Notes under the pieces: generated by a model | What the model saw: the letters and a program-made list of their open reading frames with translations, nothing else | Database searches by the model: none | What the model was told of the DNA's origin: nothing | Assembly: GCA_963920705.1 (NCBI GenBank) | Contig: OY987237.1 | Span: 12,120,601 to 12,184,600 of the forward strand | Reading direction: 5' to 3' | Length of the DNA: 64,000 nucleotides | DNA from: Odiellus spinosus | Taxonomy: Eukaryota; Arthropoda; Arachnida; Opiliones; Phalangiidae | Made by a program: the position numbers and the translations under genes | In this document: one piece after another, positions 3,335 through 28,617 of the stretch | Layout of the letters: each line of letters starts with the position of its first letter | Numbering within the stretch: the stretch's first letter is position 1

Positions 3335-3480
3335 CAAGGGATATGGAACTTCATCGTAAACGCAATATCCCTGTCAATTCAAGTGTAACTTTAAGTTTTG
3401 TTTGTTCATTATAAGTTTCGAGTTAAAACTAAAACAAACAAAAAATCCAAAAAAGACCTAGAGGGTTTACAAAATACTTA
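2894..3480. other. Upstream flank of the coiled-coil gene, poly(A) tract
   Basis: Non-coding sequence 5' of the minus-strand gene. It contains an A tract of about 29 nt near 3303-3332. From 3352 it holds the first copy of a roughly 130-bp segment that recurs from 3911. No promoter element can be named with confidence. Confidence 0.5.
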
Positions 3481-3489
3481 AAATTATTT

Positions 3490-3665
3490 TATTTTCAAAG
3501 CCTGTTTTTTAAGGGGCGTTTTATTTTCAAAGCCTGTTTAAAAGGGCGTTTTATTTTCAAAGCCTGTTTAAAAGGGCGTTTTATTTTCAAAGCCTGTGTA
3601 AAAGGGCGTTTTATTTTCAAAGCCTGTTTTAAGGGGCGTTTTATTTTAGAGCCTTTATCACGGGT
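3490..3665 (+). repeat. 30-bp tandem repeat, first patch
   Basis: About five copies of a unit built from GGGCGTTTTATTTTCAAAGC followed by CTGTTTAAAA, with exact 30-bp spacing between most GGGCG boxes. Open frames across it are artefacts of a period divisible by three. Confidence 0.9.
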
Positions 3666-3682
3666 CGTTTTATTTAATTTCA

Positions 3683-3868
3683 AGGGCTGGTTTATTTATT
3701 TTCAAGGGGTATTTTATTTATTTTCAAGGGGTGTTTTGTTTATTTTCAAGGGGTGTTTTATTTATTTTCAAGGGGTGTTTTATTTATTTTCAAGGGGTGT
3801 TTTATTTATTTTCAAGGGGTGTTTTATTTATTTTAAAGGGCTGTTTTATTTATTTTCAAGGGGTGAGT
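3683..3868 (+). repeat. 22-bp tandem repeat
   Basis: About eight copies of a 22-bp unit combining TTTTCAAGGGGTG and TTTTATTTA. It is clearly related to the 30-bp unit before it (shared GTTTTATTT and TTTTCAA) and to the 23-bp array that follows further right. Confidence 0.9.
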
Positions 3869-4043
3869 GAAATATAATCTAAACCCATCCCTTTGGAAGC
3901 CGAAAATGTTCATCGTAAACGCAATATCCAGAGTCAATTCAAGTGTAAGTTTTTGTTTGTTCATTATAAGTTTCGAGTGAAAACTAAAACAAACAAAAAA
4001 TCCAAAAAAGACCTAGAGGGCACCCCTTACAAAATACTAAAAA

Positions 4044-4490
4044 AAAAAGGGGGCGTTTTATTTTCAAAGCCTGTTTAAAAGGGCGTTTTATTTTCAAAGC
4101 CTGTTTAAAAGGGCGTTTTATTTTCAAAGCCTGTTTAAAAGGGCGTTTTATTTTCAAAGCCTGTTTAAAAGGGCGTTTTATTTTCAAAGCCTGATTTAAG
4201 GGGCATTTTATTTTCACAGCCTGTTTTAAGGGGCATTTTATTTTCACAGCCTGTTTCACGGGGCGTTTTATTTTAGAGCCTTTATCACGGGTCGTTTTAT
4301 TTTCAAGGTATGTTTAGAGGAGTGTTTTGTTTTCAAGGCCGTTTCAAGGGGTAAACTTGTTTTCAAGGCCGGTTTCAAGGGGTGTTTTGTTTTAAAGGCC
4401 GGTTTCAAGGAGTGTTTTGTTTTATAGGCCGGTTTTAAGAGGTGTTTTGTTTTCAAGGTCGGTTTCAAGGGGTGTCTTGTTTTCAAGGGG
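4044..4490 (+). repeat. 30-bp tandem repeat, second patch with divergent subfamily
   Basis: Six to seven units of the GGGCGTTTTATTTTCAAAGC family at exact 30-bp steps are followed by five or six units of a diverged subfamily with GTGTTTTGTTTTCAAGGC and GGTTTCAAGG. The array then shortens to 23-bp units at about 4490. Confidence 0.88.
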
Positions 4491-6007
4491 TGTTTTATTT
4501 TAATTTCAAGGGGTGTTTTATTTTAATTTCAAGGGGTGTTTTATTTTAATTTCAAGGGGTGTTTTATTTTAATTTCAAGGGGTGTTTTATTTTAATTTCA
4601 AGGGGTGTTTTATTTTAATTTCAAGGGGTGTTTTATTTTAATTTCAAGGGGTGTTTTATTTTAATTTCAAGGGGTGTTTTATTTTAATTTCAAGGGGTGT
4701 TTTATTTTAATTTCAAGGGGTGTTTTATTTTAATTTCAAGGGGTGTTTTATTTTAATTTCAAGGGGTGTTTTATTTTAATTTCAAGGGGTGTTTTATTTT
4801 AATTTCAAGGGGTGTTTTATTTTAATTTCAAGGGGTGTTTTATTTTAATTTCAAGGGGTGTTTTATTTTAATTTCAAGGGGTGTTTTATTTTAATTTCAA
4901 GGGGTGTTTTATTTTAATTTCTAGGGGTGTTTTATTTTAATTTCTAGGGGTGTTTTATTTTAATTTCTAGGGGTGTTTTATTTTAATTTCTAGGGGTGTT
5001 TTATTTTAATTTCTAGGGGTGTTTTATTTTAATTTCTAGGGGTGTTTTATTTTAATTTCAAGGGGTGTTTTATTTTAATTTCAAGGGGTGTTTTATTTTA
5101 ATTTCAAGGGGTGTTTTATTTTAATTTCAAGGGGTGTTTTATTTTAATTTCAAGGGGTGTTTTATTTTAATTTCAAGGGGTGTTTTATTTTAATTTCAAG
5201 GGGTGTTTTATTTTAATTTCAAGGGGTGTTTTATTTTAATTTCAAGGGGTGTTTTATTTTAATTTCAAGGGGTGTTTTATTTTAATTTCAAGGGGTGTTT
5301 TATTTTAATTTCAAGGGGTGTTTTATTTTAATTTCAAGGGGTGTTTTATTTTAATTTCAAGGGGTGTTTTATTTTAATTTCAAGGGGTGTTTTATTTTAA
5401 TTTCAAGGGGTGTTTTATTTTAATTTCAAGGGGTGTTTTATTTTAATTTCAAGGGGTGTTTTATTTTAATTTCAAGGGGTGTTTTATTTTAATTTCAAGG
5501 GGTGTTTTATTTTAATTTCAAGGGGTGTTTTATTTTAATTTCAAGGGGTGTTTTATTTTAATTTCAAGGGGTGTTTTATTTTAATTTCAAGGGGTGTTTT
5601 ATTTTAATTTCAAGGGGTGTTTTATTTTAATTTCAAGGGGTCTTTTATTTTAATTTCAAGGGGTCTTTTATTTTAATTTCAATGGGTCTTTTATTTTAAT
5701 TTCAAGGGGTCTTTTATTTTAATTTCAAGGGGTCTTTTATTTTAATTTCAAGGGGTCTTTTATTTTAATTTCAAGGGGTCTTTTATTTTAATTTCAAGGG
5801 GTCTTTTATTTTAATTTCAAGGGGTCTTTTATTTTAATTTCAAGGGGTCTTTTATTTTAATTTCAAGGGGTCTTTTATTTTAATTTCAAGGGGTCTTTTA
5901 TTTTAATTTCAAGGGGTCTTTTATTTTAATTTCAAGGGGTCTTTTATTTTAATTTCAAGGGGTCTTTTATTTTAATTTCAAGGGGTGTTTTATTTTAATT
6001 TCAAGGG
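4487..6007 (+). repeat. 23-bp satellite array, about 66 copies
   Basis: The unit is CAAGGGGTGTTTTATTTTAA followed by TTT, with 23-bp spacing (for example CAAGGGG at 4507 and 4530). It is extremely homogeneous. Two sharp variant blocks occur: CTAGGGG units at about 4920-5045 and GGGGTC units at about 5640-5975. The last unit runs directly into the first 32-bp units at about 6007. Confidence 0.97.
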
Positions 6008-9000
6008 GTGTATTTACCCGTCGGTCGTTTTTACAGGGGGTGTATTTACCCGTCGGTCGTTTTTACAGGGGGTGTATTTACCCGTCGGTCGTTTTTACAG
6101 GGGGTGTATCTATCGATCGGTCGTTTTTACAGGGGGTGTATCTATCGATCGGTCGTTTTTACAGGGGGTGTATTTATCGATCGGTCGTTTTTACAGGGGG
6201 TATATTTATCGATCGGTCGTTTTTACAGGGGGTGTATTTATCGATCGGTCGTTTTTACAGGGGGTGTATTTATCGATCGGTCGTTTTTACAGGGGGTGTA
6301 TTTATCGATCGGTCGTTTTTACAGGGGGTGTATTTATCGATCGGTCGTTTTTACAGGGGGTGTATTTATCGATCGGTCGTTTTTACAGGGGGTGTATCTA
6401 TCGATCGGTCGTTTTTACAGGGGGTGTATCTATCGATCGGTCGTTTTTACAGGGGTGTATCTATCGATCGGTCGTTTTTACAGGGGGTGTATCTATCGAT
6501 CGGTCGTTTTTACAGGGGGTGTATCTATCGATCGGTCGTTTTTACAGGGGGTGTATCTATCGATCGGTCGTTTTTACAGGGGGTGTATTTATCGATCGGT
6601 CGTTTTTACAGGGGGTGTATTTATCGATCGGTCGTTTTTACAGGGGGTGTATTTATCGATCGGTCGTTTTTACAGGGGGTGTATTTATCGATCGGTCGTT
6701 TTTACAGGGGGTGTATTTATCGATCGGTCGTTTTTACAGGGGGTGTATTTATCGATCGGTCGTTTTTACAGGGGGTGTATCTATCGATCGGTCGTTTTTA
6801 CAGGGGGTGTATTTATCGATCGGTCGTTTTTGCAGGGGGATTATTTATCGATCGGTCGTTTTTGCAGGGGGTGTATTTATCGATCGGTCGTTTTTGCAGG
6901 GGGTGTATTTATCGATCGGTCGTTTTTGCAGGGGGTGTATTTATCGATCGGTCGTTTTTACAGGGGGTGTATTTATCGATCGGTCGTTTTTACAGGGGGT
7001 GTATCTATCGATCGGTCGTTTTTACAAGGGGTGTATTTATCGATCGGTCGCTTTTACAGGGGGTGTATTTATCGATCGGTCGTTTTTACAGGGGGTGTAT
7101 TTTTCGATCGGTCGTTTTTACAGGGGGTGTATTTATCGATCGGTTGTTTTTACAGGGGGTGTATTTATCGATCGGTCGTTTTTACAGAGGGTGTATTTAT
7201 GGATCGGTCGTTTTTACAGGGGGTGTATTTATCGATCGGTCGTTTTTACAGGGGGTGTATTTATCGATCGGTCGTTTTTACAGGGGGTGTATTTTTCGAT
7301 CGGTCGTTTTTACAGGGGGTGTATTTTTCGATCGGTCGTTTTTACAGGGGGTGTATTTATCGATCGGTCGTTTTTACAGGGGGTGTATTTATCGATCGGT
7401 CGTTTTTACAGGGGGTGTATTTATCGATCGGTCGTTTTTACAGGGGGTGTATTTATCGATCGGTCGTTTTTACAGGGGGTGTATTTATCGATCGGTCGTT
7501 TTTACAGGGGGTGTATTTATCGATCGGTCGTTTTTAATGGGGGTGTATTTATCTATCGGTCGTTTTTACAGGGGGTGTATTTATCGATCGGTCGTTTTTA
7601 CAGGGGGTGTATTTATCGATCGGTCGTTTTTACAGGGGGTGTATTTATCGATCGGTCTTTTTTACAGGGGGTGTATTTATCGATCGGTCGTTTTTACAGG
7701 GGGTGTATTTATCGATCGGTCGTTTTTACAGGGGGTGTATTTATCGATCGGTCGTTTTTACAGGGGGTGTATTTATCGATCGGTCGTTTTTACAGGGGGT
7801 GTATCTATCGATCGGTCGTTTTTACAGGGGGTGTATTTATCGATCGGTCGTTTTTACAGGGGTGTATTTATCGATCGGTCGTTTTTACAGGGGGTGTATT
7901 TATCGATCGGTCGTTTTTACAGGGGGTGTATCTATCGATCGGTCGTTTTTACAGGGGGTGTATCTATCGATCGGTCGTTTTTACAGGGGTGTATTTATCG
8001 ATCGGTCGGTTTTACAGGGGGTATATTTATCGATCGGTCGTTTTTACAGGGGGTGTATTTATCGATCGGTCGTTTTTACAGGGGGTGTATTTATCGATCG
8101 GTCGTTTTTACAGGGGGTGTATTTATCGATCGGTCGTTTTTACAGGGGGTGTATTTATCGATCGGTCGTTTTTACAGGGGGTGTATCTATCGATCGGTCG
8201 TTTTTACAGGGGGTGTATTTATCGATCGGTCGTTTTTGCAGGGGGTGTATTTATCGATCGGTCGTTTTGGCAGGGGGTGTATTTATCGATCGGTCGTTTT
8301 TGCAGGGGGTGTATTTATCGATCGGTCGTTTTTGCAGGGGGATTATTTATCGATCGGTCGTTTTGCAGGGGGTGTATTTATCGATCGGTCGTTTTTGCAG
8401 GGGGATTATTTATCGATCGGTCGTTTTTGCAGGGGGTGTATTTATCGATCGGTCGTTTTTGCAGGGGGTGTATTTATCGATCGGTCGTTTTTACAGGGGG
8501 TGTATTTATCGATCGGTCGTTTTTACAGGGGGTGTATCTATCGATCGGTCGTTTTTACAGGGTGTGTATTTATCGATCGGTCGCTTTTACAGGGGGTGTA
8601 TTTATCGATCGGTCGTTTTTACAGGGGGTGTATTTTTCGATCGGTCGTTTTTACAGGGGGTGTATTTATCGATCGGTCGTTTTTACAGGGGGTGTATTTA
8701 TCGATCGGTCGTTTTTTCAGGGGGTGTATTTATCGATCGGTCGTTTTTACAGAGGGTGTATTTATCGATCGGTCGTTTTTACAGGGGGTGTATTTATCGA
8801 TCGGTCGTTTTTACAGGGGGTGTATTTATCGATCGGTCGTTTTTACAGGGGTGTATTTTTCGATCGGTCGTTTTTACAGGGGGTGTATTTATCGATCGGT
8901 CGTTTTTACAGGGGGTGTATTTATCGATCGGTCGTTTTTACAGGGGGTGTATTTATCGATCGGTCGTTTTTACAGGGGGTGTATTTATCGATCGGTCGTT

Positions 9001-10251
9001 TTTACAGGGGGTGTATTTATCGATCGGTCGTTTTTACAGGGGGTGTATTTATCGATCGGTCGTTTTTACAGGGGGTGTATTTATCGATCGGTCGTTTTTA
9101 CAGGGGGTGTATTTATCGATCGGTCGTTTTTACAGGGGGTGTATTTATCGATCGGTCGTTTTTACAGGGGGTGTATTTATCGATCGGTCGTTTTTACAGG
9201 GGGTGTATTTATCGATCGGTCGTTTTTACAGGGGGTGTATTTATCGATCGGTCGTTTTTACAGGGGGTGTATTTATCGATCGGTCGTTTTTACAGGGGGT
9301 GTATTTATCGATCGGTCGTTTTTACAGGGGGTGTATTTATCGATCGGTCGTTTTTACAGGGGGTGTATTTATCGATCGGTCGTTTTTACAGGGGGTGTAT
9401 CTATCGATCGGTTGTTTTTACAGGGGGTGTATTTATCGATCGGTCGTTTTTACAGGGGTGTATTTATCGATCGGTCGTTTTTAAAGGGGGTGTATTTATC
9501 GATCGGTCGTTTTTACAGGGGGTGTATCTATCGATCGGTCGTTTTAACAGGGGGTGTATTTATCGATCGGTCGTTTTTGCAGGGGGTGTATTTATCGATC
9601 GGTCGTTTTTGCAGGGGGTGTATTTATCGATCGGTCGTTTTTGCAGGGGGTGTATTTATCGATCGGTCGTTTTTACAGGGGGTGTATTTATCGATCGGTC
9701 GTTTTTACAGGGGGTGTATCTATCGATCGGTCGTTTTTACAAGGGGTGTATTTATCGATCGGTCGTTTTTACAGGGGGTGTATTTATCGAATGGTCGTTT
9801 TTACAGGGGGTGTATTTTTCGATCAGTCGTTTTTACAGGGGGTGTATTTATCGATCGGTCGTTTTTACAGGGGGTGTATTTATCGATCGGTCGTTTTTAC
9901 AGGGGGTTTATTTTTCGATCGGTCGTTTTTACAGGGGGTGTATTTTTCGATCGGTCGTTTTTACAGGGGATGTATTTATCGATCGGTCGTTTTTACAGGG
10001 GGTGTATTTATCGATCGGTCGTTTTTACAGGGGGTGTATTTATCGATCGGTCGTTTTTACAAGGGGTGTATTTATCGATCGGTCGTTTTTACAGGGGGTG
10101 TATTTATCGATCGGTCGTTTTTACAGGGGGTGTATTTATCGATCGGTCGTTTTTACAGGGGTTGTATTTATCGATCGGTCGTTTTTACAGGGGGTGTATT
10201 TATCGATCGGTCGTTTTTACAGGGGGTGTATTTATCGATCGGTCGTTTTTA
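6007..10251 (+). repeat. 32-bp satellite, left arm (about 130 copies, G-rich strand on plus)
   Basis: The unit is TTTTTACAGGGGGTGT followed by ATTTATCGATCGGTCG; successive CGATCGG boxes are 32 bp apart, with occasional 31-bp units that have one G fewer. The first three units carry ACCCGTCGG in place of ATCGATCGG and look transitional. Variant units (TTTTTGCAGG, GGGGGATTATT, TATTTTTCGAT, TCGCTTTTAC) recur in the same order about 1,533 bp apart (7050 and 8583; 7099 and 8632) and again about 1,182 bp later, showing a higher-order repeat. No stop codon exists in the unit in any plus-strand frame, so frames of over 1,400 codons occur by construction. I do not regard these as genes. Confidence 0.98.
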
Positions 10252-10258
10252 CAGGGGG
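10252..10258. other. Inversion centre of the 32-bp satellite
   Basis: The left arm ends ...GGTCGTTTTTA at 10251, a 7-base spacer CAGGGGG follows, and the right arm begins TAAAAACGACCGATCGATAG at 10259. Every unit to the left is in one orientation and every unit to the right in the other. Next to the spacer the first 32-bp units of the two arms are reverse complements with a single mismatch. Confidence 0.97.
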
Positions 10259-13200
10259 TAAAAACGACCGATCGATAGATACACCCCCTGTAAAAACGAC
10301 CGATCGATAAATACACCCCCTGTAAAAACGACCGATCGATAAATACACCCCCTGTAAAAACGACCGATCGATAAATACACCCCCTGTAAAAACGATCGAT
10401 CGATAAATACACCCCCTGTAAAAACGACCGATCGATAAATACACCCCCTGTAAAAACGACCGATCGATAAATAATACACCCCCTGCAAAAAAGACCGATC
10501 GATAGATACACCCCCAGCAATAACGACCGATCGATAGATACACCCCCTGTAAAAATGACCGATCGATAAATACACCCCCTGTAAAAACGACCGATCGATA
10601 AATACACCCCCTGTAAAAACGACCGATCGATAAATACACCCCCTGTAAAAACGACCGATCGATAAATACACCCCCTGTAAAAACGACCGATCGATAAATA
10701 CACCCCCTGTAAAAACGACCGATCGATAAATACACCCCCTGTAAAAACGAACGATCGATAAATACACCCCCTGTAAAAACGACCGATCGATAAATACACC
10801 CCCTGTAAAAACGACCGATCGATAAATACACCCCCTGTAAAAACGACCGATCGATAAATACACCCCCTGTAAAAACGACCGATCGATAAATACACCCCCT
10901 GTAAAAACGACCGATCGATAAATACACCCCCTGTAAAAACGACCGATCGATAAATACACCCCCTGTAAAAACGACCGATCGATAAATACACCCCCTGTAA
11001 AAACGACCGATCGATAAATACACCCCCTGTAAAAACGACCGATCGATAAATACACCCCCTGTAAAAACGAACGATCGATAAATACACCCCCTGTAAAAAC
11101 GACCGATCGATAAATACACCCCCTGTAAAAACGACCGATCGATAAATACACCCCCTGCAAAAACGACCGATCGATAGATACACCCCCAGCAAAAACGACC
11201 GATCGATAGATGCACCCCCTGAAAAAACGACCGATCGATAAATACACCCCCTGTAAAAACGACCGATCGATAAATACACCCCCTGTAAAAACGACCGATC
11301 GATAAATACACCCCCTGTAAAAACGACCGATCGATAAATACACCCCCTGTAAAAACGACCGATCGATAAACACACCCCCTGTAAAAACGACCGATCGATA
11401 AATACACCCCCTGTAAAAACGACCGATCGATAAATACACCCCTGTAAAAACGACCGATCGATAAATACACCCCCTGTAAAAACGACCGATCGATAAATAC
11501 ACCCCCTGTAAAAACGACCGATCGATAAATACACCCCCTGTAAAAACGACCGATCGATAGATACACCCCCTGTAAAAACGACCGATCGATAGATACACCC
11601 CTGTAAAAACGACCGATCGATAGATACACCCCCTGTAAAAACGACCGATAGATAGATACACCCCCTGTAAAAACGACCGATCGATAGATACACCCCCTGT
11701 AAAAACGACCGATCGATAGATACACCCCCTGTAAAACCGACCGATCGTTAGATACACCCCCTGTAAAAACGACCGATCGATAAATACACCCCCTGTAAAA
11801 ACGACCGATCGATAAATACACCCCCTGTAAAAACGACCGATCGATAAATACACCCCCTGTAAAAACGACCGATCGATAAATACACCCCCTGTAAAAACGA
11901 CCGATCGATAAATACACCCCCTGTAAAAACGACCGATCGATAAATACACCCTCTGTAAAAACGACCGATCGATAAATACACCCCCTGTAAAATCGACCGA
12001 TCAATAAATACACTCCCTGTAAAAACGACCGATCGATAAATACACCCCCTGTAAAAACGACCGATCGATAAATACACCCCCTGTAAAAACGACCGATCGA
12101 TAAATACACCCCCTGTAAAAACGACCGATCGATAAATACACCCCCTGTAAAAACGACCGATCGATAAATACACCCCCTGTAAAAACGATCGATCGATAAA
12201 TACACCCCCTGTAAAAACGACCGATCGATAAATACACCCCCTGTAAAAACGACCGATCGATAAATACACCCCCTGCAAAAAAGACCGATCGATAGATACA
12301 CCCCCAGCAATAACGACCGATCGATAGATACACCCCCTGTAAAAATGACCGATCGATAAATACACCCCCTGTAAAAACGACCGATCGATAAATACACCCC
12401 CTGTAAAAACGACCGATCGATAAATACACCCCCTGTAAAATCGACCGATCAATAAATACACTCCCTGTAAAAACGACCGATCGATAAATACACCCCCTGT
12501 AAAAACGACCGATCGATAAATACACCCCCTGTAAAAACGACCGATCGATAAATACACCCCCTGTAAAAACGACCGATCGATAAATACACCCCCTGTAAAA
12601 ACGACCGATCGATAAATACACCCCCTGTAAAAACGATCGATCGATAAATACACCCCCTGTAAAAACGACCGATCGATAAATACACCCCCTGTAAAAACGA
12701 CCGATCGATAAATACACCCCCTGCAAAAAAGACCGATCGATAGATACACCCCCAGCAATAACGACCGATCGATAGATACACCCCCTGTAAAAATGACCGA
12801 TCGATAAATACACCCCCTGTAAAAACGACCGATCGATAAATACACCCCCTGTAAAAACGACCGATCGATAAATACACCCCCTGTAAAAACGACCGATCGA
12901 TAAATACACCCCCTCTAAAAACGACCGATCGATAAATACACCCCCTGTAAAAACGACCGATCGATAAATACACCCCCTGTAAAAACGACCGATCGATAAA
13001 TACACCCCCTGTAAAAACGACCGATCGATAAATACACCCCCTGTAAAAACGACCGATCGATAAATACAACCCCTGTAAAAACGACCGATCGATAAATACA
13101 CCCCCTGTAAAAACGACCGATCGATAAATACACCCCCTGTAAAAACGACCGATCGATAAATACACCCCCTGTAAAAACGACCGATCGATAAATACACCCC

Positions 13201-16200
13201 CTGTAAAAACGACCGATCGATAGATACATCCCCTGTAAAAACGACCGATAGATAGATACACCCCCTGTAAAAACGACCGATCGATAAATACACCCCCTGT
13301 AAAAACGACCGATCGATAAAAACACCCCCTGTAAAAACGACCGATCGATAAATACACTCCCTGGAAAAACGACCGATCGATAGATACACCCCCAGCAAAA
13401 ACGACCGATCGATAGATACACCCCCTGTAAAAACGACCGATCGATAAATACACCCCCTGTAAAAACGACCGATCGATGAATACACCCCCTGTAAAAACGA
13501 CCGATCGATAAATACACCCCCTGTAAAAACGACCGATCGATAAATACACCCCCTGTAAAAACGACCGATCGATAAATACACCCCCTGTAAAAACGACCGA
13601 TCGATAAATACACCCCCTGTAAAAACGACCGATCGATAAATACACCCCCTGTAAAAACGACCGATCGATAAATACACCCCCTGTAAAAACGACCGATCGA
13701 TAAATACACCCCCTGTAAAAACGACCGATCGAAAAATACACCCCCTGTAAAAACGACCGATCGATAAATACACCCCCTGTAAAAACGACCGATCGATAAA
13801 TACACCCCCTGTAAAAACGACCGATCGATAAATACACCCCCTGCAAAAACGACCGATCGATAGATACACCCCCAGCAAAAACGACCGATCGATATATACA
13901 CCCCCTGTAAAAATGACCGATCGATAAATACACCCCCTGTAAAAACGACCGATCGATAAATACACCCCCTGTAAAAACGACCGATCGATAAATACACCCC
14001 CTGTAAAAACGACCGATCGTTAAATACACCCCCTGTAAAAACGACCGATCGATAAATACACCCCCTGTAAAAACGACCGATCGATAAATACACCCCCTGT
14101 AAAAACGACCGATCGATAAATACACCCCCTGCAAAAACGACCGATCGATAAATACACCCCCTGTAAAAACGACCGATCGATAAATACACCCCCTGTAAAA
14201 ACGACCGATCGATAAATACACCCCCTGTAAAAACGACCGATCGATAAATACACCCCCTGTAAAAACGACCGATCGATAAATACACCCCCTGTAAAAACGA
14301 CCGATCGATAGATACACCCCCTGTAAAAACGACCGATCGATAAATACACCCCCTGTAAAAACGACCGATCGATAAATACACCCCCTGTAAAAACGACCGA
14401 TCGATAAATACACCCCTGTAAAAACGACCGATCGATAAATACACCCCCTGTAAAAACGACCGATCGATAAATATACCCCCTGTAAAAACGACCGATCGAT
14501 AGATACACCCCCTGTAAAAACGACCGATCGATAAATACACCCCCTGTAAAAACGACCGATCGATAAATACACCCCCTGTAAAAACGACCGATCGATAAAT
14601 ACACCCCCTGTAAAAACGACCGATCGATAAATACACCCCCTGTAAAAACGACCGATCGATAAATACACCCCCTGTAAAAACGACCGATCGATAAATACAC
14701 CCCCTGTAAAAACGACCGATCGATAAATACACCCCCTGTAAAAACGACCGATCGATAAATACACCCCCTGTAAAAACGACCGATCGATAAATACACCCCC
14801 TGCAAAAACGACCGATCGATAGATACACCCCCAGCAAAAACGACCGATCGATAGATGCACCCCCTGAAAAAACGACCGATCGATAAATACACCCCCTGTA
14901 AAAACGACCGATCGATAAATACACCCCCTGTAAAAACGACCGATCGATAAATACACCCCCTGTAAAAACGACCGATCGATAAATACACCCCCTGTAAAAA
15001 CGACCGATCGATAAACACACCCCCTGTAAAAACGACCGATCGATAAATACACCCCCTGTAAAAACGACCGATCGATAAATACACCCCTGTAAAAACGACC
15101 GATCGATAAATACACCCCCTGTAAAAACGACCGATCGATAAATACACCCCCTGTAAAAACGACCGATCGATAAATACACCCCCTGTAAAAACGACCGATC
15201 GATAGATACACCCCCTGTAAAAACGACCGATCGATAGATACACCCCTGTAAAAACGACCGATCGATAGATACACCCCCTGTAAAAACGACCGATAGATAG
15301 ATACACCCCCTGTAAAAACGACCGATCGATAGATACACCCCCTGTAAAAACGACCGATCGATAGATACACCCCCTGTAAAACCGACCGATCGTTAGATAC
15401 ACCCCCTGTAAAAACGACCGATCGATAAATACACCCCCTGTAAAAACGACCGATCGATAAATACACCCCCTGTAAAAACGACCGATCGATAAATACACCC
15501 CCTGTAAAAACGACCGATCGATAAATACACCCCCTGTAAAAACGACCGATCGATAAATACACCCCCTGTAAAAACGATCGATCGATAAATACACCCCCTG
15601 TAAAAACGACCGATCGATAAATACACCCCCTGTAAAAACGACCGATCGATAAATACACCCCCTGCAAAAAAGACCGATCGATAAATACACCCCCTGTAAA
15701 ACCGACCGATCGTTAGATACACCCCTGTAAAAACGACCGATCGATAAATACACCCCCTGTAAAAACGACCGATCGATAAATACACCCCCTGTAAAAACGA
15801 CCGATCGATAAATACACCCCCTGTAAAAACGACCGATCGATAGATACACCCCCTGTAAAAACGACCGATCGATAGATACACCCCTGTAAAAACGACCGAT
15901 CGATAGATACACCCCCTGTAAAAACGACCGATAGATAGATACACCCCCTGTAAAAACGACCGATCGATAGATACACCCCCTGTAAAAACGACCGATCGAT
16001 AGATACACCCCCTGTAAAACCGACCGATCGTTAGATACACCCCCTGTAAAAACGACCGATCGATAAATACACCCCCTGTAAAAACGACCGATCGATAAAT
16101 ACACCCCCTGTAAAAACGACCGATCGATAAATACACCCCCTGTAAAAACGACCGATCGATAAATACACCCCCTGTAAAAACGACCGATCGATAAATACAC

Positions 16201-19200
16201 CCCCTGTAAAAACGATCGATCGATAAATACACCCCCTGTAAAAACGACCGATCGATAAATACACCCCCTGTAAAAACGACCGATCGATAAATACACTCCC
16301 TGCAAAAAAGACCGATCGATAGATACACCCCCAGCAATAACGACCGATCGATAGATACACCCCCTGTAAAAATGACCGATCGATAAATACACCCCCTGTA
16401 AAAACGACCGATCGATAAATACACCCCCTGTAAAAACGACCGATCGATAAATACACCCCCTGTAAAAACGACCGATCGATAAATACACCCCCTGTAAAAA
16501 CGACCGATCGATAAATACACCCCCTGTAAAAACGACCGATCGATAAATACACCCCCTGTAAAAACGAACGATCGATAAATACACCCCCTGTAAAAACGAC
16601 CGATCGATAAATACACCCCCTGTAAAAACGACCGATCGATAAATACACCCCCTGTAAAAACGACCGATCGATAAATACACCCCCTGTAAAAACGACCGAT
16701 CGATAAATACACCCCCTGTAAAAACGACCGATCGATAAATACACCCCCTGTAAAAACGACCGATCGATAAATACACCCCCTGTAAAAACGACCGATCGAT
16801 AAATACACCCCCTGTAAAAACGACCGATCGATAAATACACCCCCTGTAAAAACGACCGATCGATAAATACACCCCCTGTAAAAACGAACGATCGATAAAT
16901 ACACCCCCTGTAAAAACGACCGATCGATAAATACACCCCCTGTAAAAACGACCGATCGATAAATACACCCCCTGCAAAAACGACCGATCGATAGATACAC
17001 CCCCAGCAAAAACGACCGATCGATAGATGCACCCCCTGAAAAAACGACCGATCGATAAATACACCCCCTGTAAAAACGACCGATCGATAAATACACCCCC
17101 TGTAAAAACGACCGATCGATAAATACACCCCCTGTAAAAACGACCGATCGATAAATACACCCCCTGTAAAAACGACCGATCGATAAACACACCCCCTGTA
17201 AAAACGACCGATCGATAAATACACCCCCTGTAAAAACGACCGATCGATAAATACACCCCTGTAAAAACGACCGATCGATAAATACACCCCCTGTAAAAAC
17301 GACCGATCGATAAATACACCCCCTGTAAAAACGACCGATCGATAAATACACCCCCTGTAAAAACGACCGATCGATAGATACACCCCCTGTAAAAACGACC
17401 GATCGATAGATACACCCCTGTAAAAACGACCGATCGATAGATACACCCCCTGTAAAAACGACCGATAGATAGATACACCCCCTGTAAAAACGACCGATCG
17501 ATAGATACACCCCCTGTAAAAACGACCGATCGATAGATACACCCCCTGTAAAACCGACCGATCGTTAGATACACCCCCTGTAAAAACGACCGATCGATAA
17601 ATACACCCCCTGTAAAAACGACCGATCGATAAATACACCCCCTGTAAAAACGACCGATCGATAAATACACCCCCTGTAAAAACGACCGATCGATAAATAC
17701 ACCCCCTGTAAAAACGACCGATCGATAAATACACCCCCTGTAAAAACGACCGATCGATAAATACACCCTCTGTAAAAACGACCGATCGATAAATACACCC
17801 CCTGTAAAATCGACCGATCAATAAATACACTCCCTGTAAAAACGACCGATCGATAAATACACCCCCTGTAAAAACGACCGATCGATAAATACACCCCCTG
17901 TAAAAACGACCGATCGATAAATACACCCCCTGTAAAAACGACCGATCGATAAATACACCCCCTGTAAAAACGACCGATCGATAAATACACCCCCTGTAAA
18001 AACGATCGATCGATAAATACACCCCCTGTAAAAACGACCGATCGATAAATACACCCCCTGTAAAAACGACCGATCGATAAATACACCCCCTGCAAAAAAG
18101 ACCGATCGATAGATACACCCCCAGCAATAACGACCGATCGATAGATACACCCCCTGTAAAAATGACCGATCGATAAATACACCCCCTGTAAAAACGACCG
18201 ATCGATAAATACACCCCCTGTAAAAACGACCGATCGATAAATACACCCCCTGTAAAATCGACCGATCAATAAATACACTCCCTGTAAAAACGACCGATCG
18301 ATAAATACACCCCCTGTAAAAACGACCGATCGATAAATACACCCCCTGTAAAAACGACCGATCGATAAATACACCCCCTGTAAAAACGACCGATCGATAA
18401 ATACACCCCCTGTAAAAACGACCGATCGATAAATACACCCCCTGTAAAAACGATCGATCGATAAATACACCCCCTGTAAAAACGACCGATCGATAAATAC
18501 ACCCCCTGTAAAAACGACCGATCGATAAATACACCCCCTGCAAAAAAGACCGATCGATAGATACACCCCCAGCAATAACGACCGATCGATAGATACACCC
18601 CCTGTAAAAATGACCGATCGATAAATACACCCCCTGTAAAAACGACCGATCGATAAATACACCCCCTGTAAAAACGACCGATCGATAAATACACCCCCTG
18701 TAAAAACGACCGATCGATAAATACACCCCCTCTAAAAACGACCGATCGATAAATACACCCCCTGTAAAAACGACCGATCGATAAATACACCCCCTGTAAA
18801 AACGACCGATCGATAAATACACCCCCTGTAAAAACGACCGATCGATAAATACACCCCCTGTAAAAACGACCGATCGATAAATACAACCCCTGTAAAAACG
18901 ACCGATCGATAAATACACCCCCTGTAAAAACGACCGATCGATAAATACACCCCCTGTAAAAACGACCGATCGATAAATACACCCCCTGTAAAAACGACCG
19001 ATCGATAAATACACCCCCTGTAAAAACGACCGATCGATAGATACATCCCCTGTAAAAACGACCGATAGATAGATACACCCCCTGTAAAAACGACCGATCG
19101 ATAAATACACCCCCTGTAAAAACGACCGATCGATAAAAACACCCCCTGTAAAAACGACCGATCGATAAATACACTCCCTGGAAAAACGACCGATCGATAG

Positions 19201-22200
19201 ATACACCCCCAGCAAAAACGACCGATCGATAGATACACCCCCTGTAAAAACGACCGATCGATAAATACACCCCCTGTAAAAACGACCGATCGATGAATAC
19301 ACCCCCTGTAAAAACGACCGATCGATAAATACACCCCCTGTAAAAACGACCGATCGATAAATACACCCCCTGTAAAAACGACCGATCGATAAATACACCC
19401 CCTGTAAAAACGACCGATCGATAAATACACCCCCTGTAAAAACGACCGATCGATAAATACACCCCCTGTAAAAACGACCGATCGATAAATACACCCCCTG
19501 TAAAAACGACCGATCGATAAATACACCCCCTGTAAAAACGACCGATCGAAAAATACACCCCCTGTAAAAACGACCGATCGATAAATACACCCCCTGTAAA
19601 AACGACCGATCGATAAATACACCCCCTGTAAAAACGACCGATCGATAAATACACCCCCTGCAAAAACGACCGATCGATAGATACACCCCCAGCAAAAACG
19701 ACCGATCGATATATACACCCCCTGTAAAAATGACCGATCGATAAATACACCCCCTGTAAAAACGACCGATCGATAAATACACCCCCTGTAAAAACGACCG
19801 ATCGATAAATACACCCCCTGTAAAAACGACCGATCGTTAAATACACCCCCTGTAAAAACGACCGATCGATAAATACACCCCCTGTAAAAACGACCGATCG
19901 ATAAATACACCCCCTGTAAAAACGACCGATCGATAAATACACCCCCTGCAAAAACGACCGATCGATAAATACACCCCCTGTAAAAACGACCGATCGATAA
20001 ATACACCCCCTGTAAAAACGACCGATCGATAAATACACCCCCTGTAAAAACGACCGATCGATAAATACACCCCCTGTAAAAACGACCGATCGATAAATAC
20101 ACCCCCTGTAAAAACGACCGATCGATAGATACACCCCCTGTAAAAACGACCGATCGATAAATACACCCCCTGTAAAAACGACCGATCGATAAATACACCC
20201 CCTGTAAAAACGACCGATCGATAAATACACCCCTGTAAAAACGACCGATCGATAAATACACCCCCTGTAAAAACGACCGATCGATAAATATACCCCCTGT
20301 AAAAACGACCGATCGATAGATACACCCCCTGTAAAAACGACCGATCGATAAATACACCCCCTGTAAAAACGACCGATCGATAAATACACCCCCTGTAAAA
20401 ACGACCGATCGATAAATACACCCCCTGTAAAAACGACCGATCGATAAATACACCCCCTGTAAAAACGACCGATCGATAAATACACCCCCTGTAAAAACGA
20501 CCGATCGATAAATACACCCCCTGTAAAAACGACCGATCGATAAATACACCCCCTGTAAAAACGACCGATCGATAAATACACCCCCTGTAAAAACGACCGA
20601 TCGATAAATACACCCCCTGCAAAAACGACCGATCGATAGATACACCCCCAGCAAAAACGACCGATCGATAGATGCACCCCCTGAAAAAACGACCGATCGA
20701 TAAATACACCCCCTGTAAAAACGACCGATCGATAAATACACCCCCTGTAAAAACGACCGATCGATAAATACACCCCCTGTAAAAACGACCGATCGATAAA
20801 TACACCCCCTGTAAAAACGACCGATCGATAAACACACCCCCTGTAAAAACGACCGATCGATAAATACACCCCCTGTAAAAACGACCGATCGATAAATACA
20901 CCCCTGTAAAAACGACCGATCGATAAATACACCCCCTGTAAAAACGACCGATCGATAAATACACCCCCTGTAAAAACGACCGATCGATAAATACACCCCC
21001 TGTAAAAACGACCGATCGATAGATACACCCCCTGTAAAAACGACCGATCGATAGATACACCCCTGTAAAAACGACCGATCGATAGATACACCCCCTGTAA
21101 AAACGACCGATAGATAGATACACCCCCTGTAAAAACGACCGATCGATAGATACACCCCCTGTAAAAACGACCGATCGATAGATACACCCCCTGTAAAACC
21201 GACCGATCGTTAGATACACCCCCTGTAAAAACGACCGATCGATAAATACACCCCCTGTAAAAACGACCGATCGATAAATACACCCCCTGTAAAAACGACC
21301 GATCGATAAATACACCCCCTGTAAAAACGACCGATCGATAAATACACCCCCTGTAAAAACGACCGATCGATAAATACACCCCCTGTAAAAACGATCGATC
21401 GATAAATACACCCCCTGTAAAAACGACCGATCGATAAATACACCCCCTGTAAAAACGACCGATCGATAAATACACCCCCTGCAAAAAAGACCGATCGATA
21501 AATACACCCCCTGTAAAACCGACCGATCGTTAGATACACCCCTGTAAAAACGACCGATCGATAAATACACCCCCTGTAAAAACGACCGATCGATAAATAC
21601 ACCCCCTGTAAAAACGACCGATCGATAAATACACCCCCTGTAAAAACGACCGATCGATAGATACACCCCCTGTAAAAACGACCGATCGATAGATACACCC
21701 CTGTAAAAACGACCGATCGATAGATACACCCCCTGTAAAAACGACCGATAGATAGATACACCCCCTGTAAAAACGACCGATCGATAGATACACCCCCTGT
21801 AAAAACGACCGATCGATAGATACACCCCCTGTAAAACCGACCGATCGTTAGATACACCCCCTGTAAAAACGACCGATCGATAAATACACCCCCTGTAAAA
21901 ACGACCGATCGATAAATACACCCCCTGTAAAAACGACCGATCGATAAATACACCCCCTGTAAAAACGACCGATCGATAAATACACCCCCTGTAAAAACGA
22001 CCGATCGATAAATACACCCCCTGTAAAAACGATCGATCGATAAATACACCCCCTGTAAAAACGACCGATCGATAAATACACCCCCTGTAAAAACGACCGA
22101 TCGATAAATACACTCCCTGCAAAAAAGACCGATCGATAGATACACCCCCAGCAATAACGACCGATCGATAGATACACCCCCTGTAAAAATGACCGATCGA

Positions 22201-22380
22201 TAAATACACCCCCTGTAAAAACGACCGATCGATAAATACACCCCCTGTAAAAACGACCGATCGATAAATACACCCCCTGTAAAAACGACCGATCGATAAA
22301 TACACCCCCTGTAAAAACGACCGATCGATAAATACACCCCCTGTAAAAACGACCGATCGATAAATACACCCCCTGTAAAA
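10259..22380 (-). repeat. 5.8-kb higher-order repeat, two full copies and part of a third
   Basis: The marker GCAAAAAAGACC followed by CCCCCAGCAATAACG occurs at 10485, 16302 and 22119, exactly 5,817 bp apart. The markers at 12001 and 17818, 12449 and 18266, 12915 and 18732, and 15713 and 21530 share the same offset. Copy 1 has a 3-base insertion near 10471 relative to the others. Copy 3 fades near 22.38 kb, where the variant AACGAACGATCG of copies 1 and 2 is absent. The near-identity of several kilobases implies very recent duplication or an assembly effect. Confidence 0.9.
11950..12845 (-). repeat. 448-bp (14-unit) tandem duplication nested in the higher-order repeat
   Basis: The marker CTGCAAAAAAGACC recurs 448 bp apart (GC at 12275 and 12723), with the neighbouring GCAATAACG and AAAATGACCG variants in the same order. 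448 is exactly 14 monomers. The same pair is present in the second 5.8-kb copy around 17770-18662, so the 448-bp event preceded the 5.8-kb one. Confidence 0.88.
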
Positions 22381-24744
22381 ACGACCGATCGATAAATACA
22401 CCCCCTGTAAAAACGACCGATCGATAAATACACCCCCTGTAAAAACGACCGATCGATAAATACACCCCCTGTAAGAACGACCGATCGATAAATACACCCC
22501 CTGTAAAAACGACCGATCGATAAATACACCCCCTGTAAAAACGACCGATCGATAAATACACCCCCTGTAAAAACGACCGATCGATAAATACACCCCCTGT
22601 AAAAACGACCGATCGATAAATACACCCCCTGCAAAAACGACCGATCGATAGATACACCCCCAGCAAAAACGACCGATCGATAGATACACCCCCTGTAAAA
22701 ACGACCGATCGATAAATACACCCCCTGTAAAAACGACCGATCGATGAATACACCCCCTGTAAAAACGACCGATCGATAAATACACCCCCTGTAAAAACGA
22801 CCGATCGATAAATACACCCCCTGTAAAAACGACCGATCGATAAATACACCCCCTGTAAAAACGACCGATCGATAAATACACCCCCTGTAAAAACGACCGA
22901 TCGATAAATACACCCCCTGTAAAAACGACCGTTCGATAAATACACCCCCTGTAAAAACGACCGATCGATAAATACACCCCCTGTAAAAACGACCGATCGA
23001 TAAATACACCCCCTGTAAAAACGACCGATCGATAAATACACCCCCTGCAAAAACGACCGATCGATAAATACACCCCCTGTAAAAACGACCGATCGATAAA
23101 TACACCCCCTGTAAAAACGACAGATCGATAAATACACCCCCTGTAAAAACGACCGATCGATAAATACACCCCCTGTAAAAACGACCGATCGATAGATACA
23201 CCCCCTGTAAAAACGACCGATCGATAAATACACCCCCTGTAAAAACGACCGATCGATAAATACACCCCTGTAAAAACGACCGATCGATAAATACACCCCC
23301 TGTAAAAACGACCGATCGATAAATACACCCCCTGTAAAAACGACCGATCGATAAATACACCCCCTGTAAAAACGACCGAATTATAAATACACCCCCTGTA
23401 AAAACGACCGATCGATAAATACACCCCCTGTAAAAACGACCGATCGATAAATACACCCCCTGTAAAAACGACCGATCGATAAATACACCCCCTGTAAAAA
23501 CGACCGATCGATAAATACACCCCCTGCAAAAACGACCGATCGATAGATACACCCCCAGCAAAAACGACCGATCGATAAATACACCCCCTGTAAAAACGAC
23601 CGATCGATGAATACACCCCCTGTAAAAACGACCGATCGATAAATACACCCCCTGTAAAAACGACCGATCGATAAATACACCCCCTGTAAAAACGACCGAT
23701 CGATAAATACACCCCCTGTAAAAACGACCGATCGATAAATACACCCCCTGTAAAAACGACCGATCGATAAATACACCCCCTGTAAAAACGACCGATCGAT
23801 AAATACACCCCCTGTAAAAACGACCGATCGATAAATACACCCCCTGTAAAAACGACCGATCGATAAATACACCCCCTGTAAAAACGACCGATCGATAAAT
23901 ACACCCCCTGTAAAAACGACCGATCGATAGATACACCCCCTGTAAAAACGACCGATCGATAAATACACCCCCTGTAAAAACGACCGATCGATAAATACAC
24001 CCCCTGTAAAAACGACCGATCGATAAATACACCCCCTGTAAAAACGACCGATCGATAAATACACCCCCTGTAAAAACGACCGATCGATAAATACACCCCC
24101 TGTAAAAACGACCGATCGATAAATACACCCCTGTAAAAACGACCGATCGATAAATACACCCCCTGTAAAAACGACCGATCGATAAATACACCCCCTGTAA
24201 AAACGACCGATCGATAAATACACCCCCTGTAAAAACGACCGATCGATAGATACACCCCCTGTAAAAACGACCGATCGATAAATACACCCCCTGTAAAAAC
24301 GACCGATCGATAAATACACCCCCTGTAAAAACGACCGATCGATAAATACACCCCCTGTAAAAACGACCGATCGATAAATACACCCCCTGTAAAAACGACC
24401 GATCGATAAATACACCCCCTGTAAAAACGACCGATCGATAAATACACCCCTGTAAAAACGACCGATCGATAAATACACCCCCTGTAAAAACGACCGATCG
24501 ATAAATACACCCCCTGTAAAAACGACCGATCGATAAATACACCCCCTGTAAAAACGACCGATCGATAGATACACCCCCTGTAAAAACGACCGATCGATAG
24601 ATACACCCCTGTAAAAACGACCGATCGATAGATACACCCCCTGTAAAAACGACCGATAGATAGATACACCCCCTGTAAAAACGACCGATCGATAGATACA
24701 CCCCCTGTAAAAACGACCGATCGATAGATACACCCCCTGTAAAA

Positions 24745-26870
24745 CCGACCGATCGTTAGATACACCCCCTGTAAAAACGACCGATCGATAGATACACCCC
24801 CTGTAAAAACGACCGATCGATAGATACACCCCCTGTAAAAACGACCGATCGATAGATACACCCCCTGTAAAAACGACCGATCGATAGATACACCCCCTGT
24901 AAAAACGACTGATCGATAGATACACCCCCTGTAAAAACGACCGATCGATAAATACACCCCCTGTAAAAACGACCGATCGATAAATACACCCCCTGTAAAA
25001 ACGACCGATCGATAAATACACCCCCTGCAAAAACGACCGATCGATAAATACACCCCCTGCAAAAACGACCGATCGATAAATACACCCCCTGCAAAAACGA
25101 CCGATCGATAAATACACCCCCTGCAAAAACGACCGATCGATAAATACACCCCCTGCAAAAACGACCGATCGATAAATACACCCCCTGTAAAAACGACCGA
25201 TCGATAGATACACCTCCTGTAAAAACGACCGATCGATAAATACACCCCCTGTAAAAACGACCGATCGATAAATACACCCCTGTAAAAACGACCGATCGAT
25301 AAATATACCCCCTGTAAAAACGACCGATCGATAAATACACCCCCTGTAAAAACGACCGATCGATAAATACACCCCCTGTAAAAACGACCGAATTATAAAT
25401 ACACCCCCTGTAAAAACGACCGATCGATAAATACACCCCCTGTAAAAACGACCGATCGATAAATACACCCCCTGTAAAAACGACCGATCGATAAATACAC
25501 CCCCTGTAAAAACGACCGATCGATAAATACACCCCCTGCAAAAACGACCGATCGATAGATACACCCCCAGCAAAAACGACCGATCGATAGATGCACCCCC
25601 TGAAAAAACGACCGATCGATAAATACACCCCCTGTAAAAACGACCGATCGATGAATACACCCCCTGTAAAAACGACCGATCGATAAATACACCCCCTGTA
25701 AAAACGACCGATCGATAAATACACCCCCTGTAAAAACGACCGATCAATAAATACACCCCCTGTAAAAACGACCGATCGATAAATACACCCCCTGTAAAAA
25801 CGACCGATCGATAAATACACCCCCTGTAAAAACGACCGATCGATAAATACACCCCCTGTAAAAACGACCGATCGATAAATACACCCCTGTAAAAACGACC
25901 GATCGATAAATACACCCCCTGTAAAAACGACCGATCGATAAATACACCCCCTGTAAAAACGACCGATCGATAAATACACCCCCTGTAAAAACGACCGATC
26001 GATAGATACACCCCCTGTAAAAACGACCGATCGATAGATACACCCCTGTAAAAACGACCGATCGATAGATACACCCCCTGTAAAAACGACCGATAGATAG
26101 ATACACCCCCTGTAAAAACGACCGATCGATAGATACACCCCCTGTAAAAACGACCGATCGATAGATACACCCCCTGTAAAACCGACCGATCGTTAGATAC
26201 ACCCCTGTAAAAACGACCGATCGATAGATACACCCCCTGTAAAAACGACCGATCGATAGATACACCCCCTGTAAAAACGACCGATCGATAGATACACCCC
26301 CTGTAAAAACGACTGATCGATAGATACACCCCCTGTAAAAACGACCGATCGATAAATACACCCCCTGTAAAAACGACCGATCGATAAATACACCCCCTGT
26401 AAAAACGACCGATCGATAAATACACCCCCTGTAAAAACGACCGATCGATAAATACACCCCCTGCAAAAACGACCGATCGATAAATACACCCCCTGCAAAA
26501 ACGACCGATCGATGAATACACCCCCTGCAAAAACGACCGATCGATAAATACACCCCCTGCAAAAACGACCGATCGATAAATACACCCCCTGCAAAAACGA
26601 CCGATCGATAAATACACCCCCTGTAAAAACGACCGATCGATAGATACACCTCCTGTAAAAACGACCGATCGATAAATACACCCCCTGTAAAAACGACCGA
26701 TCGATAAATACACCCCTGTAAAAACGACCGATCGATAAATATACCCCCTGTAAAAACGACCGATCGATAAATACACCCCCTGTAAAAACGACCGATCGAT
26801 AAATACACCCCCTGTAAAAACGACCGAATTATAAATACACCCCCTGTAAAAACGACCGATCGATAAATAC
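24745..26870 (-). repeat. About 1.44-kb duplicated satellite module
   Basis: The rare variants CACCTCCTG (25211 and 26647) and GACCGAATTATAAA (25386 and 26822) are both separated by 1,436 bp, and a cluster of CTGCAAAAACG units lies in front of each. A third GACCGAATTAT unit at 23374 shows that the module is older. This is a different higher-order period from the 5,817-bp one to the left. Confidence 0.85.
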
Positions 26871-27830
26871 ATCCCCTGTAAAAACGACCGATCGATAAAT
26901 ACACCCCCTGTAAAAACGACCGATCGATAAATACACCCCCTGTAAAAACGACCGATCGATAAATACACCCCCTGCAAAAACGACCGATCGATAGATACAC
27001 CCCCAGCAAAAACGACCGATCGATAGATACACCCCCTGTAAAAACGACCGATCGATAAATACACCCCCTGTAAAAACGACCGATCGATGAATACACCCCC
27101 TGTAAAAACGACCGATCGATAAATACACCCCCTGTAAAAACGACCGATCGATAAATACACCCCCTGTAAAAACGACCGATCGATAAATACACCCCCTGTA
27201 AAAACGACCGATCGATAAATACACCCCCTGTAAAACCGACCGATCGATAAATACACCGCCTGTAAAAACGACCGATCGATAAATACACCCCCTGTAAAAA
27301 CGACCGATCGATAAATACACCCCTGTAAAAACGACCGATCGATAAATACACCCCCTGTAAAAACGACCGATCGATAAATACACCCCCTGTAAAAACGACC
27401 GATCGATAAATACACCCCCTGTAAAACCGACCGATCGATAAATACACCCCCTGTAAAACCGACCGATCGATAAATACACCCCTGTAAAAACGACCGATCG
27501 ATAAATACACCCCCTGTAAAAACGACCGATCGATATATACACCCCCTGTAAAAACGACCGATCGATAAATACACCCCCTGTAAAAACGACCGATCGATAG
27601 ATACACCCCCTGTAAAAACGACCGATCGATAAATACACCCCCTGTAAAAACGACCGATCGATAAATACACCCCCTGTAAAAACGACCGATCGATAGATAC
27701 ACCCCCTGTAAAAACGACCGATCAATAAATACACCCCCTGTAAAAACGACCGATCGATAAATACACCCCCTGTAAAAAAAAAAATAATAAATACACCCCC
27801 GATACGTTGAGATTGCGACGGATTGAGACG

Positions 27831-28430
27831 GATTGAGATTGATTGAGATTGATTGAGATTGATTGAGATTGATTGAGATTGATTGAGATTGATTGAGATT
27901 GATTGAGATTGATTGAGATTGATTGAGATTGATTGAGATTGATTGAGATTGATTGAGATTGATTGAGATTGATTGAGATTGATTGAGATTGATTGAGATT
28001 GATTGAGATTGATTGAGATTGATTGAGATTGATTGAGATTGATTGAGATTGATTGAGATTGATTGAGATTGATTGAGATTGATTGAGATTGATTGAGATT
28101 GATTGAGATTGATTGAGATTGATTGAGATTGATTGAGATTGATTGAGATTGATTGAGATTGATTGAGATTGATTGAGATTGATTGAGATTGATTGAGATT
28201 GATTGAGATTGATTGAGATTGATTGAGATTGATTGAGATTGATTGAGATTGATTGAGATTGATTGAGATTGATTGAGATTGATTGAGATTGATTGAGATT
28301 GATTGAGATTGATTGAGATTGATTGAGATTGATTGAGATTGATTGAGATTGATTGAGATTGATTGAGATTGATTGAGATTGATTGAGATTTATTGAGATT
28401 GATTGAGATTGATTGAGATTGATTGAGATT
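27831..28430. repeat. 10-bp satellite GATTGAGATT, about 60 copies
   Basis: Nearly perfect decamers run without interruption, with one visible variant (TATTGAGATT at 28391). They are preceded by diverged units (GACGGATTGAGACG) at about 27807-27830. The array abuts the right end of the 32-bp block and shows no relation to the 32-bp unit. Confidence 0.98.
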
Positions 28431-28590
28431 TTGATTATTTATTTTACAGGGGGTGTATTTATTTATTTTTTTTTACAAGGGGTACCCCTTGTAAAATTTT
28501 TGATTATTTATTTTAGAGGGGGTGAATTTATTTTTTTTTACAAGGGGTCTTCTTTTCCAAGTGGGAAAAAAAAGGGGGGATATACCCCTT
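28428..28590 (+). repeat. Remnant satellite units beyond the 10-bp array
   Basis: Fragments ATTTATTTTACAGGGGGTGT, TTTTACAAGGGGT and ATTTTAGAGGGGGTGAATTT resemble hybrids of the 22/23-bp and 32-bp units, in the orientation of the left arm. A short palindrome ACAAGGGGTACCCCTTGT lies within. They suggest that the satellite family once extended to both sides of the 10-bp array. Confidence 0.75.
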
Positions 28591-28617
28591 GGAAAAAAAA
28601 AAAAAAATTTCAAAACT

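Follow-up and report, generated by a model that had tools for sequence, protein, structure and literature searches.

Why should a minisatellite array run for kilobases in one direction and then, at a single point, run back in the other? The question is raised by a stretch of 64,000 nucleotides from the harvestman Odiellus spinosus (the window; C15:12120601-12184600 in an assembly of 443,074,358 bases and 286 contigs), in which a 32-bp unit forms two long arrays of opposite orientation. We find that the window contains one of at least 22 twin arrays scattered over this genome, composite minisatellite loci whose repeat families (32-mers, 18-30-mers, 10-24-mers and degenerate seed units) all face one centre, tail-to-tail. 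For the 32-mer family a lone flip seems to be the rule and not an oddity.

Within the window, Tandem Repeats Finder (TRF) reports the unit on the + strand at 6005-10259 (133.2 copies, 97% matches) and as its reverse complement at 10258-27778 (548.2 copies, 97% matches). A wrap-around alignment of the unit divides the two arrays into 135 and 549 pieces, nearly all of 32 or 31 bp, and a 14-base core, sought with up to two substitutions, lies on the + strand in 133 of 133 matches to the left and on the - strand in 546 of 546 to the right, which means that the window array switches once. When at most one mismatch is allowed, the 14-mer core is found 649 times, where shuffled sequence gives a mean of 0.08. 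A preliminary description of this DNA had recognized one 32-bp satellite with a single change of orientation, and TRF, the unit alignment and the strands of the core matches all bear it out; its array of about 130 and about 545 monomers at 6007..27780 also stands, with counts and limits now refined to ~133 and ~548 units at 6005-27778. The spacer of 7 bases that it placed at 10252-10258 is in fact 5 bases long: AGGGG, at 10253-10257, is left unpaired between GTTTTTAC and GTAAAAAC. Folded as single-stranded DNA, the 205 bases spanning the junction give one near-perfect hairpin of -120.4 kcal/mol, compared with a shuffle mean of -27.4. The window array is a real inverted repeat. The shortness of its spacer is not remarkable in itself, since the 32-bp periodicity limits the spacer: any inversion in such an array leaves 16 bases or fewer, and 7 or fewer in 47% of phase combinations.

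The same arrangement recurs across the genome. The tail-to-tail and head-to-head counts that follow rest on exact motifs, and both are lower bounds. The tail-to-tail pattern (GGTCGTTTTTAC, a spacer of 0-30 bases and the reverse complement) is found at 15 places, one of them a single inverted unit, or microinversion, in a + array; the reversed control is found at none. When the spacer is set to 31-61 bases, 32 matches appear, 24 at known junctions and 8 at new loci. Over the whole assembly, this exact-motif search gives the 32-mer 22 tail-to-tail loci, counting the window and spread over 8 contigs. When the same 12-mers are arranged head-to-head, they yield no match with the shorter spacer and one with the longer, and this sole match is the other half of the one-unit microinversion; the count is therefore 22 to 0, for which the two-sided chance, were both types equally likely, is about 5 in 10 million. 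A further head-to-head pattern, unspecific to the 32-mer, occurs at 21 places, nearly all of them in the degenerate units that we call seed units and one being the microinversion, and stands outside this count. All 22 loci change from + to - once in the stretch read, which was 10 kb on each side for ten loci besides the window, ~2.5 kb on each side for three, and ~315 bases on each side for eight. One clean switch, which the preliminary description thought unusual, is accordingly nothing out of the ordinary in this genome. The 18-30-mer family that accompanies the 32-mer has no tail-to-tail junctions of its own with the two motifs searched.

The assembly contains 3,446 forward and 6,991 reverse exact 31-mers of the unit, of which 807 and 1,152 fall within the window and the ten loci read at 10 kb; as a separate observation, the unit at this length is twice as common on the reverse as on the forward contig strand.

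The polarity is not confined to the 32-mer. In the window and the ten loci, counts given in the order left +, left -, right +, right - are 2147/1/0/2746 for the 32-mer, 278/0/0/651 for the core of the 18-30-mers, 280/0/1/254 for the core of the 24-mer and 339/1/2/92 for the seed units. The nearly palindromic motif TTTTACAAGGGGTACCC lies on both strands (10, 9, 14 and 13). The families that accompany the 32-mer are thus likewise mirrored about the switch in these 11 loci, with few exceptions. Going inward, one usually meets first 18-30-mers, then seed units, then 24-mers or their 10-16-bp relatives, and last the 32-mer; the order is not strict, and single loci are without certain layers or have alternating ones.

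The preliminary description had offered a false join of opposite strands by the assembler as its alternative, and fold-back reads would be a second way to produce such a structure artificially. We consider an artefact of either kind very improbable. Compared outward from the switch, the window's arms differ by 9 events in 256 bases, 23 in 512 and 42 in 1,024, and random in-phase offsets give mean differences of 7.2, 22.1 and 41.6 over the same lengths; divergence at the junction is thus about what random offsets show, which excludes both a fold-back read and a recent fold-back duplication. The mirror test is negative in the window and across the loci, with no mirror copying adjoining the centre in any of the 11 tested. 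Fourteen right-arm unit types with at least four copies, 90 units in all, are missing from the left arm. Random joins would be expected to produce neither a polarity of 22 to 0 nor mirrored outer families, and the distribution of the 22 junctions over 20 distinct strings, together with arms that are not mirror copies, argues against fold-back reads and false joins alike. What an artefact could explain is arm length. A 5,817-bp higher-order repeat lies next to the switch in two copies that agree exactly over 6,087 bases, and a third, partial copy is cut by the switch, with 3 events of difference in ~220 bases. This exact identity sits inside an array that otherwise varies by ~3%. The duplication at 10481-22384 may be very recent or may be an assembly product, and arm lengths, above all that of this duplicated part, may be assembly products as well. 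No higher-order structure common to the two arms of the window is demonstrable: a unit-level alignment scores 17.0 in the same order (30 shuffles: mean 11.9, maximum 17.0), and the reversed control, at 18.0, scores equally high.

At one edit, on either strand, the 22 junctions fall into 17 types, and at two edits into 13. The window's junction is identical to that of one C12 locus, and four loci form one type at one edit (two identical, on C14 and C15, one on C1 and one on C13), where random phases would give ~0.5 identical pairs. The junctions are thus mostly different yet common to loci beyond chance, which reflects either shared descent or preferred break points. The two arms of one locus resemble each other in their unit-type profiles more closely than do shuffled pairings, none of 10,000 of which reach the observed mean of 0.554. 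Loci on C1 (C1) and C12 (C12b) have unlike arms, because in each the left arm is dominated by another unit type.

We tried growth of the arrays from the centre as an account of these patterns and rejected it. Divergence rises with distance from the centre in 15 of 22 arms by rank correlation, mostly weakly and with no steady gradient; the units less than 500 bases from it tend, if anything, to be the more divergent ones (mean 1.25-1.39 edits, against 0.75-1.09 farther out), which is partly due to a change of unit type there in two left arms.

Polarity across several families and many junctions points to one of three causes: a founder that was already tail-to-tail, copying that is biased, or loss of the head-to-head arrangement. 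The second could take the form of inverted duplication in situ, a one-way array being copied back on itself; either template switching would always begin at the unit's 3' side or the head-to-head outcomes would be lost, and the outer layers would be mirrored since they were copied along. We regard this as rather unlikely. It would fit the local unit variants common to both arms of a locus, the junctions mostly unlike between loci, the one-unit microinversion of template-switch type at C14:12.52 Mb, the small quasi-palindromes in the window's right flank, and a one-way locus whose 3' edge carries seed units, much as the right edge of the window's repeats carries + seeds. It requires the tail-to-tail bias as an extra assumption, and mirror copying near the centre, which a recent event should have left behind, is seen in none of the 11 loci. 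The microinversion just mentioned lies at ~950-1020 of C14:12523500-12525500 (L034), where a lone inverted 32-bp unit interrupts a long one-way array.

Loss of head-to-head pairs could result from a polar effect on replication, if the repeat hinders forks arriving from one side only: a tail-to-tail pair would admit forks at both ends and stop them at its centre, and a head-to-head pair could not be completed and would be lost. Such an effect would account for 22 to 0 without a common founder and with differing junctions, and it is in keeping with a run of four to five G residues that lies on the same strand of the 32-mer, of the seed units and of many 18-30-mers. The 10-24-mer family has no such run and is mirrored too, and a strand-composition test of 14 repeat arrays, unsorted into families, gave a mixed result of little weight; the test is crude, and some of the arrays turned out to be family members. 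We think a fork effect unlikely. The stronger proposal, that tail-to-tail pairs are natural replication-termination traps and that head-to-head pairs, being uncopyable, vanish, we hold to be quite unlikely; if it is true, this genome carries at least 22 eukaryotic fork traps that can be read from repeat direction alone.

Ordinary independent inversions inside arrays or at their margins, of the sort found in primate alpha satellite, would leave the tail-to-tail excess without a special cause. Inversions within satellite arrays are known (from the part of PMC11062924 available to us), and the window's right arm is flanked on both sides by + family members, as an inverted block would be. Inversions internal to an array yield tail-to-tail and head-to-head junctions in pairs, against the 22 to 0 observed, and mirrored outer layers at every one of the 11 loci examined would not result from them; this explanation seems improbable to us. 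Re-inverting 10258-28447 in silico brings the right joint into phase and leaves the left joint inverted, a result that is not decisive.

We suspect instead that the polarity derives from a palindromic or foldback-like founder whose arms were then amplified separately, an account that we put forward tentatively, as quite possible and still short of probable. We prefer it to biased copying or to loss of head-to-head pairs, yet the present evidence does not separate it from them. A short founder of this kind, its two halves already tail-to-tail, would be ancestral to the loci. Tandem amplification would have proceeded inside each arm separately, new unit types would have spread through pairing with homologous neighbours while the direction was kept, and deletion at an unstable centre would have made the junctions of the loci diverge. 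As a by-product, a hairpin or cruciform might arise, and the structure would be explained without any function. Besides the 22 to 0 count, the mirrored layers, the likeness of the two arms of a locus and the absence of mirror copying at the centre, we count in favour of a founder that some junctions are common to loci beyond the ~0.5 identical pairs expected by chance, and that foldback elements have inverted tandem-repeat arms and seed satellites, as the available part of PMC4079207 describes.

Several observations weigh against a founder. Most junctions differ between loci (the 17 types at one edit), and only 11 of the 22 arms have their own partner as the most similar arm. A perfect mirror would also need the outermost seed units on the right of the window's repeats to be oriented the other way. 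At C1:19.96 Mb an array appears to have one arm, with only + exact matches over 17 kb among the first 100 places listed; its final 2 kb end in + seed units followed by other DNA, and pairing of arms is seemingly not obligatory. Comparison of 8 outer stretches, 6 of them extending into non-repeat DNA, revealed no common outer terminus, and the sole match beyond the repeat families, 38 bases at two loci, lies on the same strand on opposite sides and is therefore not a mirrored terminus. The window's left outer 154 bases have 3 matches, every one of them on the contig to which the window belongs. Finally, the window shows no convincing target-site duplication: there are two overlapping 8-9-bp matches, a number that 56 of 200 random pairs of stretches equal or exceed.

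The 38-base match itself (92%) is not satellite DNA. It stands beside outer 18-19-bp arrays at ~1357-1384 of L024 (C12) and at ~6905-6931 of L033 (C14), and is possibly the end of an inserted mobile element.

Table 1. Repeat arms, switch point and neighbouring features of the window
Feature	Position	Strand	Evidence
Outer left layer: related 30-, 22-, 30- and 23-bp minisatellites (core GGGGTGTTTTATTTTCAA and variants)	3487..6016	+	TRF, sequence, orientation
Left arm, ~133 copies of the 32-bp unit GGGGGTGTATTTATCGATCGGTCGTTTTTACA	6005..10252	+	TRF, unit alignment, 133/133 core matches
Unpaired palindrome centre AGGGG, tail-to-tail switch	10253..10257	.	Sequence; 5-base loop in DNA fold
Right arm, ~548 copies of the 32-bp unit, reversed	10258..27778	-	TRF, unit alignment, 546/546 core matches
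5,817-bp higher-order repeat, two copies, 6,087 bases exactly identical (10481-16567 = 16298-22384)	10481..22384	-	Sequence comparison
Outer right layer: 10-bp minisatellite (AATCTCAATC on the - strand)	27821..28430	-	TRF, sequence, orientation
Degenerate, partly palindromic seed units (GGGGGTGTATTTATT..., AAGGGGTACCCCTT)	28429..28605	.	Sequence, genome matches
unc-79 gene, 3' part, several exons	28768..46036	-	Pfam PF14776; PDB matches to UNC79

The features of the window are collected in Table 1. On the left, the outer minisatellites share the direction of the left arm, and the 23-bp array merges into the 32-mer without a break. On this side, 3350-3675 and 3909-4243 are an 87% identical direct duplication of flank and 30-bp array, and the unique part of the duplication has a third copy on the same contig ~1.9 Mb away. 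Farther left, an open frame of 523 amino acids on the - strand at 1328-2899 has no Pfam match and contains internal repeats from in-frame minisatellites of 39, 42, 84 and 87 bp. A cloning-vector look-alike at 3230-3256 was dismissed: 16 plasmid records match it weakly (best E 0.4), and none of the 5 listed resembles a vector.

On the right, the part of the seed units at 28429-28548 is the source of many of 891 genome matches, which lie ~66 bp apart where neighbours are listed. Matches of 91-96% occur at many tandem places, for example C1:16.08-16.17 Mb and C13:18.98-19.03 Mb. This region belongs to a larger, internally palindromic satellite, with the ~66-bp spacing seen where neighbours are listed.

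Beyond the seed units the window holds the 3' part of unc-79. PF14776 and a PDB match coincide at one exon, PDB matches mark three more, and the last exon has a weak PDB match (E 0.004). The intron at 33472-35136 (- strand) is nearly filled by a 22-bp minisatellite (33505-35088, 72 copies, 99%) and separates exons that match UNC79 residues to 2084 and from 2088 (7w7g), with splice sites placed by eye. The stop codon lies ~340 bases from the 10-bp array. The gene points into the right arm, and transcripts reading through might conceivably feed a functional hairpin or double-stranded RNA locus, for which the strong in-silico hairpin could also be taken as a sign. Such a fold follows from any inversion, and a poly-A signal, AATAAA at 28623, stands downstream of unc-79 ahead of the seed units and hence before the arrays; we would be surprised if the locus had this role.

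A coding role for the 32-bp unit was set aside as well. One strand of the unit has no stop in any of its three frames, and the same is true, on some strand, of 24% of shuffled units. Searches of the window for RNA families and tRNAs found none, and an exact 27-mer had no match in viral and prokaryotic collections.

The TTAGG telomere repeat is typical of arthropods, and the switch might be thought the scar of a telomere fusion. We rejected this candidate after inspecting 12 contig ends of 800 bases: one is all N, five consist of or terminate in (TTAGG)n or its complement, and the exact 32-mer motif occurs in none of the 12. At one of the ends (L035, C1:1-800), TCAGG is mixed with TTAGG beside a different minisatellite.

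Satellite arrays are usually thought to turn over regardless of direction beyond local homogenisation. One tail-to-tail switch at all 22 loci, in several families, means that polarity is kept or inherited while units are replaced. The polarity rule thereby supplies a sharp test between inheritance from a palindromic founder, biased copying and loss of the opposite arrangement. We did not meet a tail-to-tail-only rule in the literature on inverted satellite arrays that we searched, in part from incomplete texts, which is no proof that it is unpublished.

Orientation changes within satellite arrays have precedents. In primate alpha satellite, inversions have been validated with ultra-long reads, including a 3.2 Mb polymorphism in one orangutan centromere (PMC11062924, in the part available). 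The likeness is the change of orientation within an array; the primate inversions are large, and both junction types would be expected of them, whereas the loci described here are dispersed and show one type only. Inverted TCAST dimers are described in the accessible part of PMC5844308.

Foldback transposons offer a second comparison. As far as the sources could be consulted, Tetris (PMC4079207) and Galileo (PMC3573991) have inverted arms with tandem repeats, up to 1.7 kb and up to 1.3 kb, respectively, Tetris exemplifying foldback elements that seed satellites; Rehavkus of Tribolium carries a satellite within its inverted termini (PMC10218199). The arms of such elements surround a middle region, and many copies have target duplications of 7-10 bp (PMC4079207, PMC3573991, again from partial texts). 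Like them, the harvestman loci have long inverted tandem-repeat arms in fixed polarity and are modular, dispersed, variable in length and able to seed satellites. Unlike them, these loci have arms that reach 17.5 kb, where foldback arms in those accounts extend to ~1.3-1.7 kb at most, and they lack a middle region; nor did we find conserved ends, in the 8 outer stretches, or a clear target duplication, at the window. The locus resembles a foldback arm pair, and its membership in that class is to be taken as a likeness only.

The closest parallel in overall form is with the macro-dyad satellites of Tribolium madens. According to the portion of PMC13081366 available, these consist mostly of two opposite subarrays, up to 75 kb long and checked on raw HiFi reads; their repeats, of 225 and 704 bp, occupy (peri)centromeric blocks of several megabases, and their inversion sites are 98-99% conserved. 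The common ground is two opposite subarrays of kilobases to tens of kilobases, variable arm length and, in principle, a giant hairpin. Two long opposite subarrays are present in the window and 13 further loci, with 8 more seen over 315 bases on each side. The differences lie in the unit, which here is 32 bp, in its distribution over 8 contigs, with the window's array between genes and adjoining unc-79, and in the inversion site, which is not conserved across arrays: 20 junction strings in 22 loci, with partial sharing, stand against the conserved sites of the beetle. Here, too, several related families are mirrored in layers, tail-to-tail only as far as searched, and the available portion of PMC13081366 states no polarity rule for Tribolium. 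With the twin arrays of Odiellus, the macro-dyad idea would reach beyond beetle centromeres and take in a dispersed minisatellite.

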